DNA from: a virus
IMG/VR virus record: IMGVR_UViG_3300031772_002537
Coordinates: 1-23,319 of that record
DNA: 23,319 bases
Strand: one strand, 5' to 3'
Shown: piece after piece, positions 15,098-21,047 of the stretch
Layout of the letters: each line of letters opens with the position of its first letter
Numbering within the stretch: the first letter of the stretch is position 1
Notes under the pieces: generated by a model
Databases searched by the model: none
What the model was told of the DNA's origin: nothing
What the model saw: only the letters and a program-made list of their open reading frames with translations
Program-made: the position numbers and the translations under genes

Positions 15098-15493
15098 ATG
15101 GCAACGTCAACGATAAGCGGGATCGGCGGAACGCTGCAAACGGCGGCCGGAGTCGTCGCCGACATCAAGAGTTGGTCCCTTACCCGGACGTCCAAGCTCG
15201 GCGAGATCGTGTCCTCCTCAACCGGAGGGATCGTTCAGCGCGTGGTCGGTGCTACGGACTGGACGGCCAAGGCAGACTTCGTGTGCGATGGTAGCACACC
15301 CGCGAACCTGCCCGTCAATGGCGCGACGGTGACGCTGGACCTGCGAGCGGGCGGCGTTGGCACGGCGCGCTTTTACAACATGGTCGGTTGGGTTGAGAGC
15401 ATCGACATCAACCTGACGGTCAGTGAGGAGCCGGTGGGCGGCACGGTCAATATCAGCGGCAACGGCGCGATAACGGAAGGCAACGTAACGTAA
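15098..15493 (+). CDS. Major tail tube protein, copy 1
   Basis: This 131-aa protein has the tail-tube texture: V-A-D-I-K-S-W-S-L-T-R near the start, T-D-W-T-A-K-A-D-F in the middle, and a C-terminal S-I-D-I-N-L-T-V-S-E-E-P-V-G-G-T-V-N-I-S-G-N-G-A-I, the strand-turn-strand end typical of gpV/TP901-type tube subunits. It would polymerise as stacked rings around the tape measure. GGGAGG lies 8 bases upstream of the ATG. The gene is paralogous to 16234-16611: the two products are near-identical over residues about 5-12 and 44-75 and in the S-I-D-I-N-L-T-V-S-E-E-P segment, and differ in a loop around 76-95 and at the C-terminus. A UUCG hairpin follows the stop directly. Confidence 0.78.
   Translation: MATSTISGIGGTLQTAAGVVADIKSWSLTRTSKLGEIVSSSTGGIVQRVVGATDWTAKADFVCDGSTPANLPVNGATVTLDLRAGGVGTARFYNMVGWVESIDINLTVSEEPVGGTVNISGNGAITEGNVT
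15476..15490 (+). repeat. 15-nt direct repeat, left copy (bracketing the Ala-rich gene)
   Basis: GAAGGCAACGTAACG here encodes the last residues (E-G-N-V-T) of tail tube copy 1. The same 15 bases recur at 16205-16219, between the Ala-rich gene and tail tube copy 2. Confidence 0.9.
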
Positions 15494-15522: not shown

Positions 15523-16197
15523 ATGAATCACGTAGGAACACACGTGCAGATCAAGGCGGCGGCCACGACGGCCGTGGCCTGCGACGCAACCCAGGAAACG
15601 TGCGGTGCCACCAAGGTGACGTGCGATAACGCCGCAACGGCGGCTGCCGGAGCACTTGTTACCGCCGAGTCCAATCTGACCGACGCGAACGCGGCCTGCG
15701 TCACGCCGGACTCCGACTACGCCGCGGCGCTGCTTGCGGCGTCGGCCGCGGACGATGCTGTCGCCGTGGCCGACTTGGCATGGTACGAAGCCGAGGCCTA
15801 CAAGCAACTGGCGGACGAAGCACATCTGGCTATCTGCCGAGAAGTGCGCACCGGATGGTCGGCTGGTGCGTTGGCGCTGTGGACGAACCAGCTCGCGGCG
15901 GCGGTTGCGGCAAAGGTCATCACGGATGCGGCCTACTCGAGTGCCGTGGATGCCAAGGCGATCACGGACGCGGCCAAGGTCATTACGGATGCCGCCGTGG
16001 TCTCGACGGCGGCGGCCAAGGCGATCACGGACGCGGCAAAGGCCGTCGCCGTGGCAGCCCATGCGGCGGCACACGTAACGGACACGGCGGCGAAGGCTGC
16101 GAAGGTCATTGCCGATGCAGCGGTGACAGCGGCGGACGCGGCCGCGGTGGTGGCGAATGATGCCCTTGACGTGAAGATCGCTGAGCAGGGGGCATAA
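15523..16197 (+). CDS. Alanine-rich repeat protein lodged between the tail-tube paralogues
   Basis: The 224-aa product is dominated by Ala, with Val, Asp, Thr and Lys. The second half is a chain of loose repeats around A-K-x-I-T-D-A-A (residues about 125-215: K-V-I-T-D-A-A, K-A-I-T-D-A-A, K-V-I-T-D-A-A, K-A-I-T-D-A-A and diverging K-V-I-A-D-A-A). These should form long helices or a coiled coil. The N-terminal third has four Cys residues (C-D-A-T-Q-E-T-C, V-T-C-D, A-A-C). The middle carries a Trp/Tyr-rich linker, L-A-W-Y-E-A-E-A-Y. No signal peptide is seen. GGGAG lies 7 bases before the ATG. A stalk, tail-associated fibre or assembly protein is plausible; the family is not recognised. The gene is bracketed by a 15-nt direct repeat, suggesting insertion into a tail-tube duplication. 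Confidence 0.7.
   Translation: MNHVGTHVQIKAAATTAVACDATQETCGATKVTCDNAATAAAGALVTAESNLTDANAACVTPDSDYAAALLAASAADDAVAVADLAWYEAEAYKQLADEAHLAICREVRTGWSAGALALWTNQLAAAVAAKVITDAAYSSAVDAKAITDAAKVITDAAVVSTAAAKAITDAAKAVAVAAHAAAHVTDTAAKAAKVIADAAVTAADAAAVVANDALDVKIAEQGA
15952..16037 (+). repeat. Internal coding repeats of the Ala-rich gene
   Basis: A 23-nt block starting GCCAAGGCGATCACGGACGC occurs at 15952-15974 and identically at 16015-16037. Related blocks with K-V-I-T-D-A-A coding lie before and between them. The repeats keep frame and encode the helix heptad-like unit. Confidence 0.8.
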
Positions 16198-16233: not shown

Positions 16234-16611
16234 ATGGCAACTAGTGCGATAAGCGGGATCGGCGGAACACTGAGAGTCGGGCCGACGAATGTCATTGCAG
16301 ATATCAAGGGCTGGTCCCTGACGCGAAATGCGAAACTCGGCGAAGTAGTTTCGTCCTCAACGGGCGGCATGGTGGCCCGCGTTGTGGGCGCGACTGACTG
16401 GACGGCAAAGGCAGACTTCGTCTGTGACGGATCGACGCCGACGAACCTGCCAGTCCCCGGCGCGGCCATTGCGCTCGTGCTCTTGTCCGGTGCCGCCACG
16501 TACACGGGCACGGGCATCGTCGAGAGCATCGACATCAACCTGACGGTGAGTGAGGAGCCCGTAAGCGGCTCCGTCAACATCAGCGGCAACGGCGCGATGG
16601 TCGAGACGTAG
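16234..16611 (+). CDS. Tail tube protein, copy 2 (paralogue)
   Basis: This 125-aa paralogue of the tail tube protein at 15098 shares the opening I-S-G-I-G-G-T-L, I-A-D-I-K-G-W-S-L-T-R, the central V-G-A-T-D-W-T-A-K-A-D-F-V-C-D-G-S-T-P, and the C-terminal S-I-D-I-N-L-T-V-S-E-E-P. The copies differ in the segment after N-L-P-V and at the extreme C-terminus, which is shorter here (ending A-M-V-E-T). Synonymous changes are frequent between the genes, so the duplication is not recent. Either both build a mixed tube, or one is the tube and the other a specialised end ring or surface-exposed variant. AAGGAG lies 9-10 bases upstream of the ATG. The stop TAG is part of the SD of the next gene (TAGGAGG). 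Confidence 0.78.
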   Translation: MATSAISGIGGTLRVGPTNVIADIKGWSLTRNAKLGEVVSSSTGGMVARVVGATDWTAKADFVCDGSTPTNLPVPGAAIALVLLSGAATYTGTGIVESIDINLTVSEEPVSGSVNISGNGAMVET

Positions 16612-16622
16612 GAGGTATCCGC

Positions 16623-17111
16623 ATGGCCGTGGAACTTCTCTATCACGTCAAAACGACCGTGAAGGAAACGCTCGCGGCCGGGGTGGACGCCGCCGCACCC
16701 GCCGGCCGGGTGATCGTCCACGACCAGTTCGACACTGGCATCATCCTGAACGCGGGGACTACCCCGGCGGCGACGAAGGTCGCGGCGTGGACTCGCACGA
16801 TTGCCAACGTGAATGAGGTTATCGACTTGACGGCGCTGACTGGCGCCGGTGGCGCGGCGCTGGATGCGACTGGGCTGAGAGTTCGGGCGTTTTTTCTTCG
16901 GAACACGGGAGCCAACACCGTCACTCTCAGTGGAGTTGTCACCAACGGGTATCTTCTGTTGGGTTCGGCATGGCTTCTCGCGGTTGTGCCCGGTGGCATT
17001 CTGTCTTACTACGCCAGTGCGACGGCACCTCTCGTCGGCGCGACATCAAGGTACATCGTCTCGCTGGGGACCGTCGGGCAAACCTACGATTGCATGGTCG
17101 TTTTCGGATAG
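16623..17111 (+). CDS. Unknown beta-rich phage protein of the tail module
   Basis: This is a 162-aa protein, strand-rich throughout, with Gly/Ala/Thr/Val turns: V-I-V-H-D-Q-F-D-T-G-I-I-L-N-A-G-T-T-P, then R-V-R-A-F-F-L-R-N-T-G-A-N-T-V-T-L-S, V-V-P-G-G-I-L-S-Y-Y, and a last strand, G-Q-T-Y-D-C-M-V-V-F-G. This is the texture of small jelly-roll or Ig-like virion proteins; the 'V-P-G-G-x-L' turn followed by a terminal strand recurs in such proteins. I cannot name a family. A surface decoration of the tail or an accessory tube protein is plausible. AGGAGG lies 6 bases before the ATG, sharing the preceding stop codon. The next gene follows after a 9-bp gap with an even stronger SD. Confidence 0.62.
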   Translation: MAVELLYHVKTTVKETLAAGVDAAAPAGRVIVHDQFDTGIILNAGTTPAATKVAAWTRTIANVNEVIDLTALTGAGGAALDATGLRVRAFFLRNTGANTVTLSGVVTNGYLLLGSAWLLAVVPGGILSYYASATAPLVGATSRYIVSLGTVGQTYDCMVVFG

Positions 17112-17120
17112 GAGGAAGGT

Positions 17121-17612
17121 ATGGGCATCGAGGATGCAGTGGCGGCTGAAATCTCCCTGACGGTGGACGACAAGCGGTACGAGTTCGCGCCGCTCACGGT
17201 GCGGGCGTGGGGGCGGCTCGTCCGGTGGGCACAGGATGAATACCTTGCCACCGCAATGTCAGCCGCCGCGGCCGTGCCAGACGTGGGATTGAGGCAGGAA
17301 CTCATCGACCGTGCCCTGGTGTTCGTCGGGCGGGTTTCGCTGACGGCTCGCGAGACGGACCGCGAGGGATTCGATGCCTTCACACGGCAACTCAGCGGCA
17401 TCTCCGGCGTTCGGCAGACGATTTCCGAATCGCTGCTCTGCGCCAAGCGGACCGGCTCTTATCAGAAGACCGCGATCACCGATGACTTCGTGGATGAACT
17501 GTTCGGCCGCATCAAGGGTGCCGGGAAGCTCCCTGAGATCATCGACCGAATATTCGCGGCATCCGGGATCAAGGAGGAACCGGGAAAAAACCAGGCGGGG
17601 GCTCCAGCCTGA
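17121..17612 (+). CDS. Tail assembly chaperone, short form (lambda gpG-like position)
   Basis: The 163-aa zero-frame product is helical and polar, beginning MGIEDAVAAEISLTVDDKRY, with P-L-T-V-R-A-W-G-R-L-V-R-W-A-Q-D-E-Y and a long acidic/basic helical middle, ending E-E-P-G-K-N-Q-A-G-A-P-A. It lies directly before the tape-measure gene, where tailed phages encode the chaperone that coats the tape measure during tube assembly. The decisive evidence is at its 3' end: a slippery GGGAAAAAAC in the correct phase, a stem-loop behind it and a -1 frame open to the start of the tape-measure gene. AGGAGGAAGG ends 1 base before the ATG at 17121, so the effective SD core is a few bases further back, merging with the previous stop. 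Confidence 0.8.
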   Translation: MGIEDAVAAEISLTVDDKRYEFAPLTVRAWGRLVRWAQDEYLATAMSAAAAVPDVGLRQELIDRALVFVGRVSLTARETDREGFDAFTRQLSGISGVRQTISESLLCAKRTGSYQKTAITDDFVDELFGRIKGAGKLPEIIDRIFAASGIKEEPGKNQAGAPA

Positions 17613-17806
17613 CGCTGGGGTCCCTGTCTCAGTTGGAGTATCTGATGTCGCGAGTGCTCGAGGAAACGGTGTGGCCGATGGATGTGATTGCTGATATGAC
17701 CGTGCCTCAGATTCTCTGGCTGTTCGTGGACCGGCCGACCGGAAAGGGCGGTGCCCATCGGACTGTTTCGCTCGCGGAGTACAAGCGCATGAAGGGGATC
17801 AAATGA
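17121..17806 (+). CDS. Tail assembly chaperone, -1 frameshift fusion (lambda gpG-T-like)
   Basis: A -1 shift on the slippery run joins 156-157 zero-frame codons to 71-72 codons of the -1 frame, giving a 228-aa fusion whichever heptamer is used. The added part begins P-G-G-S-S-L-T-L-G-S-L-S-Q-L-E-Y, continues D-V-I-A-D-M-T-V-P-Q-I-L-W-L-F, and ends Y-K-R-M-K-G-I-K. The -1 frame stop (TGA 17804-17806) overlaps the tape-measure ATG at 17803. In lambda, G and GT are made at a fixed ratio; both bind the tape measure, and GT recruits tube subunits. Without frameshifting, this 190-bp stretch would be an unexplained gap. A separate 53-codon start at ATG 17645 is the less likely alternative. Confidence 0.8.
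17582..17591 (+). promoter_or_regulatory. -1 ribosomal frameshift slippery sequence
   Basis: GGGAAAAAAC is read in the zero frame as ..G GGA AAA AAC. It holds two overlapping slippery heptamers in the correct phase: G GGA AAA (17582-17588), one base away from the lambda G/T heptamer, and A AAA AAC (17585-17591), a classic -1 site. Confidence 0.85.
17593..17629 (+). promoter_or_regulatory. Frameshift-stimulating stem-loop
   Basis: Bases 17593-17608 can pair with 17614-17629 around the loop CTGAC: 16 pairs with four G-U wobbles (595/627, 597/625, 601/621, 603/619). The GC-rich upper stem (17598-17608 with 17614-17624) begins six bases after A AAA AAC, the spacing usual for -1 frameshift stimulators. 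Confidence 0.75.
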
Positions 17807-19152
17807 GCCTGGGCGAGGGATTCATCGACCTGAAGCTGGACACGCTCCACCTGGACGCGGGACTGAAGACCGTCGCCGCGAAGTTTTCCGGCCTGAGCAG
17901 TCAGATCAACGCACAACTGTCCGGCGGCATGTTCGGCGGCGGAAAGACGTTCGGCGTGATGGAGGGCATGTTCGGCGGTCTGGACAAAGGCTCGCTCAAT
18001 ACGGTAAGCGCTGGGCTTGGTGACGCAAGGAAAAGCGTCACGGATATGAGCAATGCGTTTGGAGAAATGGGCAGAACGTCAAAGAGCGCGATCACTGGTT
18101 TGGAGGGTGGTTTTGCACGGACGGGGGCCATTACGGGGATCGCGGTTATGGCGATCGCGCGCATCGCGCGGGGGATCGCGGAGGGCGCCGCCAAGGCGCA
18201 CGAACTGGCTGATGCATTCCGGTCCGGCGCGATGTCGGCGAACGACGTTGGCCTTGAACTCGCCAAGAGCCTGCCGATCATCGGGAGCCTGGTCAAAGCG
18301 GCAATCGACTTGCAAGAGGCGATCGCGCCGGTAGGCGTAGACCTGTCGAAACAACATGGCATCGCGCTGGACATGGTGACGGCCGCCAAACGGGAGCGCG
18401 ACCTTGCCGTCGCGGCCACCGACATTGACCGTCAGCGAGTCGCTGAGGCGCAGCGATATAAGGATGCCAAGGAAAAGATCGCGGCGCAGGAACGCGAAGC
18501 GGCAGCCGAAGGTCGCATGAACTCGGTAGAGGCGAACAAGGCCGCGAATCAGGCGTTGAGGTTTGCGGAAGAAACGAATGCCGCGAACGTGGCCAAGATC
18601 GACAAGGCCGCAGCAGACCTGAAAGCGAAAGGCATCGCCGACGTGGCCGAGAGGACAAAACGAGTTGCGGATGAAGTGAGCGAGGCCGCCGAACGGAGGG
18701 AAAAGGATGCGGCCGACGCGACGGCCGCCAAGTGGAAGACCATCAGCGAACGGATCGCGGCGCTCGGAAAGGAAGTCCAGACGCCCATCGAAGTCTACCG
18801 GGACGGGATGAAGGAGATTTCGGAGCTCATGGCGACCGGCCTTATGGGCAAGGACGTGTTCGCCCGCCAGGCGGCGAAACTGAAAGACGAACTCGGCAAG
18901 ACCAACCTGAACGAACTCGGCAAGACCAACCTGAAGGAACTGCCCGTTGACGTTGCGGTAGGCGGACGGCTGGGTCTTGAGGACATCGCCAAGAATATCC
19001 AGGTGGCGCAACTCAAATCGTCGAAGGACGAACGGCAACTCGCCGCCGCCGAGGAAACGGCCAAGCAGACGCGGGAATCTAACGAGCACCTGAAACGCAT
19101 GGCGGACGTAGGTTTCGCACCGGGCGGATCGGGGCGCGGCGTCTTTAGCTAA
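17803..19152 (+). CDS. Tape measure protein
   Basis: This 449-aa protein follows the tail chaperone pair with an ATGA overlap. It starts with a tube-binding-type segment, F-I-D-L-K-L-D-T-L-H-L-D-A-G-L-K. A Gly/Met-rich stretch with two M-F-G-G motifs follows, then a hydrophobic region (about 105-125, A-I-T-G-I-A-V-M-A-I-A-R-I-A-R-G-I) and a second weaker one near 155-180. A long Ala/Glu/Lys/Arg coiled coil then runs from about 185 to the end. It sets tail length and is probably ejected with DNA. At about 0.15 nm per residue the tail would be near 65-70 nm, a short siphovirus tail. No lysozyme or peptidase domain is visible. A 24-bp tandem repeat lies at residues about 363-378. Confidence 0.83.
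   Translation: MSLGEGFIDLKLDTLHLDAGLKTVAAKFSGLSSQINAQLSGGMFGGGKTFGVMEGMFGGLDKGSLNTVSAGLGDARKSVTDMSNAFGEMGRTSKSAITGLEGGFARTGAITGIAVMAIARIARGIAEGAAKAHELADAFRSGAMSANDVGLELAKSLPIIGSLVKAAIDLQEAIAPVGVDLSKQHGIALDMVTAAKRERDLAVAATDIDRQRVAEAQRYKDAKEKIAAQEREAAAEGRMNSVEANKAANQALRFAEETNAANVAKIDKAAADLKAKGIADVAERTKRVADEVSEAAERREKDAADATAAKWKTISERIAALGKEVQTPIEVYRDGMKEISELMATGLMGKDVFARQAAKLKDELGKTNLNELGKTNLKELPVDVAVGGRLGLEDIAKNIQVAQLKSSKDERQLAAAEETAKQTRESNEHLKRMADVGFAPGGSGRGVFS
18888..18935 (+). repeat. Perfect 24-bp tandem duplication in the tape-measure gene
   Basis: Two identical 24-bp units, 18888-18911 and 18912-18935 (each starting CGAACTCGGCAAGACC), encode E-L-G-K-T-N-L-N then E-L-G-K-T-N-L-K. Exact identity at the DNA level suggests a recent slippage or duplication that added eight residues to the tape measure. 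Confidence 0.92.
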
Positions 19153-20157: not shown

Positions 20158-21047
20158 TGCCTGATGTCTTTCACGATCTGCCCACGATTCGACCGGCGGT
20201 GCCCGGAGGCCCGCTCCGCGCCCGCGACTTCAATCTTCTCGTGCGTGGCGTTCGGCAGGCCACGGCACCTGGGTACCAGTCCGGGACCATCGTCGATCCG
20301 CAGGGTACGTTTCAGCGGACGATCCCCGTGGAGGCGGCCGGGACAACGGCGATCCTCGCAATCGTCACGGCCCACGAAAAGTACGTCGCCGCGGCCCCGC
20401 CGCCCGACCCGCCGAGTGCTCGCGTGGGCGCGATCTACCGGCACGTTGCCAAGCCCATCGTGGCGGCGGATCACGTCAACACCTACTACGGCTCGGATGA
20501 ATACCGCTTCTCGGCGATCCAGCCGGGCGGATTCTTTCACCTGGGGCAGCTCGTAACGATCTTCGAGCTCGGCGCCGGCAGTGGCATCTACAAGGCCAAC
20601 TGCCCAGGCTTCTTCGGCAAGGTCAGCAGGGCCGACGCCGAAGGCCCGGCCGGTGGGCCGTGGGGGCTTGTCGAGGTGACACCATTCGACGGCGAACCGG
20701 GCAAGTTCTACGCGACGCCTGCGGCCCTGACGTTTTTCGACAACGTGACAACCGTCGGCGACGCCCGCGTGTGGAAGGCGCAGACGTTCATCGGTACGGA
20801 GCCGCTCATCGGCAGTCCGGTTTGGTGCCAGCCCATCGGCGGCTTCGAGAACGGGACCGGCGTGTATGTCCCGCAGTGGCTTGCGTGGGCCGTGCCGAAC
20901 CTGTTCGGACACCCGACGGACGCGGACTACGCGAACAAGGAGCCGACGGACAACCTGAATTGCCCTGAGACGGACCCGAAGATCCCCGTGGCGAAGCCGA
21001 CGCGAGATACCCTGGGCACGCTGCCCAGCGTGGTGACGACCGGATGA
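20157..21047 (+). CDS. Tail-tip structural protein of unknown family
   Basis: The 296-aa product starts at ATG 20157 (TGATG overlap). An ATG at 20103 in the same frame lies within the preceding gene and is rejected. The N-terminus, P-A-V-P-G-G-P-L-R-A-R-D-F-N-L-L-V-R-G-V-R-Q, resembles the trimerising or attachment leader of phage fibre-type proteins ('P.GPL.A.DfN'). After a Pro-rich linker (A-A-A-P-P-P-D-P-P-S-A) comes a mixed alpha/beta body with many aromatic and Gly residues, and a polar tail, P-E-T-D-P-K-I-P-V-A-K-P-T. No enzyme motif is visible. It is probably part of the tail tip or a fibre base. Its stop overlaps the next gene in ATGA. Confidence 0.62.
   Translation: MPDVFHDLPTIRPAVPGGPLRARDFNLLVRGVRQATAPGYQSGTIVDPQGTFQRTIPVEAAGTTAILAIVTAHEKYVAAAPPPDPPSARVGAIYRHVAKPIVAADHVNTYYGSDEYRFSAIQPGGFFHLGQLVTIFELGAGSGIYKANCPGFFGKVSRADAEGPAGGPWGLVEVTPFDGEPGKFYATPAALTFFDNVTTVGDARVWKAQTFIGTEPLIGSPVWCQPIGGFENGTGVYVPQWLAWAVPNLFGHPTDADYANKEPTDNLNCPETDPKIPVAKPTRDTLGTLPSVVTTG

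Follow-up and report, generated by a model that had tools for sequence, protein, structure and literature searches.

The window analysed here, a stretch of 23,319 bases from an IMG/VR virus record (GC content 64%), very probably carries a programmed -1 ribosomal frameshift in a tail-assembly chaperone gene, organised in the manner of the lambda G/GT pair (Table 1). This is a textbook phage device, i.e., a kind of system already known, in a divergent new lineage. The lambda G/GT type is characterised by the production of both G and GT at roughly 30:1 and by the absence of the two from virions, and the lambda heptamer is G_GGA_AAG. In lambda, many gpG and few gpGT molecules (at a molar ratio of about 30:1) bind the tape measure protein, the T part recruits the tube protein, and this type of tail chaperone frameshift is widely conserved (PMC5009743). 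The window resembles lambda in the position of the gene just before that for the tape measure protein, in a predicted -1 slip towards the 3' end of G, and in a short product accompanied by a G-T fusion, both of which are predicted in the window (PMC5009743). On the other hand, the window differs from lambda in its heptamers (G_GGA_AAA and A_AAA_AAC), in possessing a strong stem-loop and an SD-like element, and in that neither G nor T is recognised by any model in the Pfam, PHROGs or NCBIfam libraries. As ORFs of different phages show low sequence similarity (PMC5009743), the absence of a family match does not exclude membership of the G/GT type. The gene order is that of the lambda type, with the second tail-tube-like gene followed by an ORF at 16623-17111, G and the tape measure gene, the last of which was identified via related loci.

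Table 1. Features of the probable frameshift locus in the window and in related loci
Feature	Position	Strand	Basis or description
Tail-tube-like protein, copy 1	15098..15493	+	93/132 aligned columns identical with copy 2
Tail-tube-like protein, copy 2	16234..16611	+	E 0.0013 against phrog_1407 (major tail protein)
G gene, tail assembly chaperone (zero frame, 163 aa)	17121..17612	+	ORF; HMM of five relatives' G, E 8.6e-10
SD-like AAGGAGG, candidate 5' stimulator	17571..17577	+	duplex with anti-SD, -11.4 kcal/mol
Slippery run GGGAAAAAAC: G_GGA_AAA (17582-17588) overlapping A_AAA_AAC (17585-17591)	17582..17591	+	computed phase
T part, -1 frame, stop TGA 17804-17806	17588..17806	+	open frame; HMM of relatives' T
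16-bp stem-loop, candidate 3' stimulator	17593..17629	+	MFE -29.7 kcal/mol
Tape measure protein gene, 449 aa	17803..19152	+	tape-measure HMM from relatives, E 1.7e-5
L003	A_AAA_AAA at 15673		T in -1; TAA 15889 overlaps ATG 15891; nine-A run
L009	A_AAA_AAA at 20945		T in -1; TAA 21176 overlaps ATG 21178; eight-A run
L013	A_AAA_AAT at 18896		T in -1; TGA 19109 just inside tape measure (ATG 19101)
L014	T part at L014:10192-10434		T in -1; without canonical heptamer
L023	G011:6500-14500	reverse	T in +1 (equally -2)
L024			-1 frame open; C_CCT_TTA in phase; weak T similarity

The preliminary description of this DNA had placed a slippery run in the correct phase at the end of G, and our computation agrees: read from the gene start, the zero frame is CCG GGA AAA AAC, which puts both X_XXY_YYZ heptamers in phase. 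The GGGAAAAAAC decamer occurs once in the whole window. In-phase heptamers of the form XXX(AAA or TTT)N number only five in the 7004 codons of the window's genes, and two of the five are those described here. When the last 15 codons of G were resampled synonymously, any in-phase heptamer appeared in 8% of the cases and the GGGAAAAAAC decamer in 0.7%. No stop interrupts the -1 frame between 17537 and 17803, and the TGA that closes it overlaps the tape-measure ATG, again as described earlier; a shuffled stretch of 70 codons remains open in 7% of cases. The computed translations likewise reproduce the product sizes given before, namely 163 aa for the unshifted protein and 228 aa after a -1 shift. 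Slipping at A_AAA_AAC is predicted to create the junction ...PGKNPGGG... with the trans-frame peptide NPGGGSSLTLGSLSQLEYLMSR, and slipping at G_GGA_AAA the junction ...PGKKPGGG... (K-K-PGGG, the KPGGG... form).

The stem-loop reported behind the run was also recovered by folding. Its arms (17593-17608 and 17614-17629) form 16 pairs, and the zero-frame TGA lies inside the 5-nt loop. Against dinucleotide shuffles its z value is -3.2, with one of 200 shuffles as good, and it ranks seventh among 3325 windows of 48 nt, neighbouring windows sharing the same stem. The stem begins 1 nt downstream of A_AAA_AAC (4 nt downstream of G_GGA_AAA), a spacing that suits a -1 cassette. The possibility of the stem being a terminator was ruled out, as a T tract is absent. 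The earlier account of the cassette did not include the AAGGAGG element, which is located 7 nt upstream of A_AAA_AAC and 4 nt upstream of G_GGA_AAA and may act as a 5' stimulator, judging from its duplex with the anti-SD. An SD-like element of this strength was found in the window only and is not conserved in the relatives.

In E. coli dnaX, the spacing between the SD element and the heptamer is about 10 nt. That gene (A_AAA_AAG) and the window share an SD-like element, a heptamer and a stem-loop in the same order, whereas the window has a shorter SD spacing (4-7 nt), heptamers that are weaker by E. coli standards, and a frameshifted product that is the long one. The g-t genes of the haloarchaeal tailed viruses HCTV-1/-2/-5 differ from those of the window in their archaeal hosts and in the single heptamers reported. 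No use of GGGAAAAAAC for frameshifting was recognisable from the titles of the literature matches listed.

The efficient heptamers in E. coli include V_VVA_AAR, and A_AAA_AAC is a low-efficiency one (PMC4066793). G_GGA_AAA is called inefficient in the introduction of the same study, which cites earlier work, and is among the better heptamers in its own data (PMC4066793). Because V_VVA_AAR is among the efficient motifs, G_GGA_AAA is expected to be shift-prone when stimulators are present. The main slip site is thus probably G_GGA_AAA, with A_AAA_AAC secondary, on efficiencies that are those of E. coli and may not be those of the host. The overlap of two heptamers, previously regarded as unusual, follows by itself, as any G3A6C run contains both automatically. 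Nor is the suggestion of a high or two-site rate supported: A_AAA_AAC is poor in E. coli, and low-efficiency motifs serve naturally where little fusion is wanted (PMC4066793), so that a high rate is not implied.

In the scheme that we infer (the occurrence and rate of slipping, the action of the stimulators and the contacts between the proteins included), most ribosomes would translate G up to its TGA at 17610 and yield the 163-aa chaperone, which would coat the tape measure protein. The stem-loop, and perhaps also the internal SD-like element, would pause a minority of the ribosomes, which would slip back by one base on GGGAAAAAAC and continue in the T frame as far as 17803, which would give the 228-aa G-T fusion. 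By analogy with lambda, the T end of the fusion would then recruit the tail-tube protein to the complex of tape measure and chaperone.

Relatives of this locus were obtained via TerL (one contig, L002/L003) and then via alignments of the capsid and portal (the rest), giving loci that include the tail region (L003, L009, L010, L013, L014, L023 and L024). Direct searches of viral contigs with G, the tape measure, the capsid, the portal and a 562-aa gene found no relatives, and none was found among the genome contigs scanned. A collection of isolated phages gave no match for G or the tape measure of the window, or for G of L009. A profile comparison with the chaperone of Corynebacterium phage Stiles, which shares the layout of the window and whose portal distantly resembles that of the window, detected no similarity.

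G in the relatives is only 19-25% identical to that of the window. Nevertheless, HMMs of G (from five relatives) and of the tape measure, both built with the window excluded, matched their counterparts in the window (Table 1). The tape measure of L003 in turn matches phrog_1533, a tape measure family, with an E-value of 2e-84, and strong matches to phrog_1533 are also present in the L009 and L023 records. A window-free HMM of T from five relatives, searched against 506 six-frame ORFs, matched the -1 ORF at 17537-17803 with an E-value of 2.3e-4 (the next best being 1.5) and recognised T in no frame but -1; leave-one-out tests recovered the relatives' own T parts at 1.1e-5 to 6e-14. T of the relatives has a common core, W-x6-LTxxQ (WDANQVSLLTIPQ in L003, WDPDTVDGLTLPQ in L009, WDANTVKDLTPAQ in L013, WTLEQVTELTPLQ in L014 and WTPSEIADLTWPQ in L023), which appears in the window as WPMDVIADMTVPQ, with M replacing L. 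The proposal of a G/GT-type chaperone pair is therefore strengthened, as divergent relatives keep G, a shifted T and an adjoining tape measure gene. One could still suppose that an A run in a linker, a GC-rich hairpin and a functionless open frame, or a sequencing indel, came together by chance, as the single features have chance rates of 0.2-8% and the GC content is high. We give this next to no credence: homology recognises T in the -1 frame only, the layout is common to related loci, and the L009 and L010 assemblies are identical over 921 bases including the slippery site, an agreement that speaks against an indel artefact. Modest as the single features are, together with the homology of T they go far beyond chance.

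T can be recognised in five relatives, few and divergent loci among which L009 and L010, being identical over the site, are counted as one. It lies in the -1 frame in four of them and in the +1/-2 frame in the fifth; L024 was left out of these counts, being too distant for a firm assignment of T. An in-phase A_AAA_AAN occurs at the equivalent place in three of the five (L003, L009/L010 and L013), and in these -1 relatives the T stop is at, or overlaps, the tape-measure start. The canonical site is missing in L014 and L023. T is out of frame in both nonetheless, indicating that the site itself is replaceable. The direction of frameshifting is known to differ between phages (-1, -2 or +1; PMC5009743), and in L023 the sequence near the end of G is GAA CCC GGT AAA GAT TGA, where CCC_GGT is a candidate +1 slip site. 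Of the relatives, L009 alone shares with the window a strong downstream stem; L003 and L013 lack one. As to whether run, stem and -1 frame are conserved together in related phages, the shifted T frame is indeed kept, whereas the strong stem is confined to L009 and the heptamer to three of the five.

The same loci bear on two other ways of expressing T. T could be a separate small protein made from its own internal start with no frameshift, as an ATG at 17645 in the T frame of the window is preceded by a well-placed SD-like GGAG (17635-17638) and L003 likewise has an ATG near the equivalent place. In L009, L014 and L023, on the contrary, the T frame contains no ATG, GTG or TTG before the conserved core, so that T there needs a frame change to be made (i.e., as a fusion). 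Initiation at 17645 would in addition lose the N-terminal part of T and leave the in-phase slippery run unexplained, and we consider it very unlikely. Alternatively, the frame might be changed by RNA polymerase slipping on the A run rather than by the ribosome. Transcriptional slippage is used by dnaX of T. thermophilus (PMC5009743), and the runs of nine A in L003 and eight A in L009 are of lengths that make it plausible. It appears extremely unlikely here, as the run in the window has just six A, set in perfect heptamers before a strong stem-loop, and that of L013 also has six. A -1 shift by the ribosome thus remains the preferred reading for the window. A further-reaching reading would be that the overlapping heptamers, the strong SD-like element and the strong stem make the shift unusually efficient, with two junctions, and that the family switched between -1 and +1/-2 shifting while keeping the same T; we regard this extension as unlikely.

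The present findings place divergent uncultured tailed phages, the chaperones of which are unrecognised by family models, within the G/GT scheme, and offer a route to finding the gene through locus order, the out-of-frame W-x6-LTxxQ core and the slippery site. The loci also form a natural series, from -1 arrangements with various heptamers or none that is obvious to a +1/-2 arrangement, in which the replacement of a recoding signal without loss of its product can be studied.

For the fold of G, an AlphaFold2 model with the G of the window as the first sequence had a pLDDT of 51 and was not used. With the G of L003 first, the pLDDT was 76.8, and the predicted structure comprised a beta hairpin followed by helices. 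Foldseek of this L003 model against the PDB returned nothing credible, and the hits of a sequence profile search of the PDB were limited to helical chains, one of them a designed protein and others, for example, SNAREs. It was the second look with VIA-align, over 279 chains, and not Foldseek alone, that named tail chaperones. The HK97 tail assembly chaperone (2OB9) ranked first (Z 6.5, 94 aligned, rmsd 4.6) and B. subtilis YqbN (3KLU), which we take to be a tail-chaperone-type protein of the skin-prophage tail cluster, second (Z 6.0, 89 aligned, rmsd 3.0), ahead of a third row at Z 4.5; Z values of 6-6.5 fall in the range where chance similarity occurs and below the level that proves homology. 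The sequence identity of these two to the G of L003 is just 9-14%. Matches of the L003 model in BFVD, all with weak E-values, included N15 GT and several proteins annotated as tail assembly chaperones. That two tail-chaperone-type proteins head the list for the L003 model is suggestive.

On the precedent of lambda, T is expected to have a tail-tube protein as its partner. The window carries two tail-tube-like copies, which show about 70% protein identity and 73% identity at the DNA level. Two copies are also present in L009, and one each in L003, L013 and L014. Between the two copies in the window lies a gene (15523-16197) for an alanine-rich repetitive protein of 224 aa (79 of the 224 residues are Ala) with AAKAITDAAK-like units and without a family match in Pfam or PHROGs. 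The ORF that separates the second copy from G encodes 162 aa and lacks a confident family match; in L003, G directly follows the tube gene, with no equivalent ORF between them. Elsewhere in the window, the portal is of the Mu type and the head genes are F-like, and a D12-class adenine methyltransferase gene is located at 921-2012, its end overlapping the start of the listed terminase ORF.
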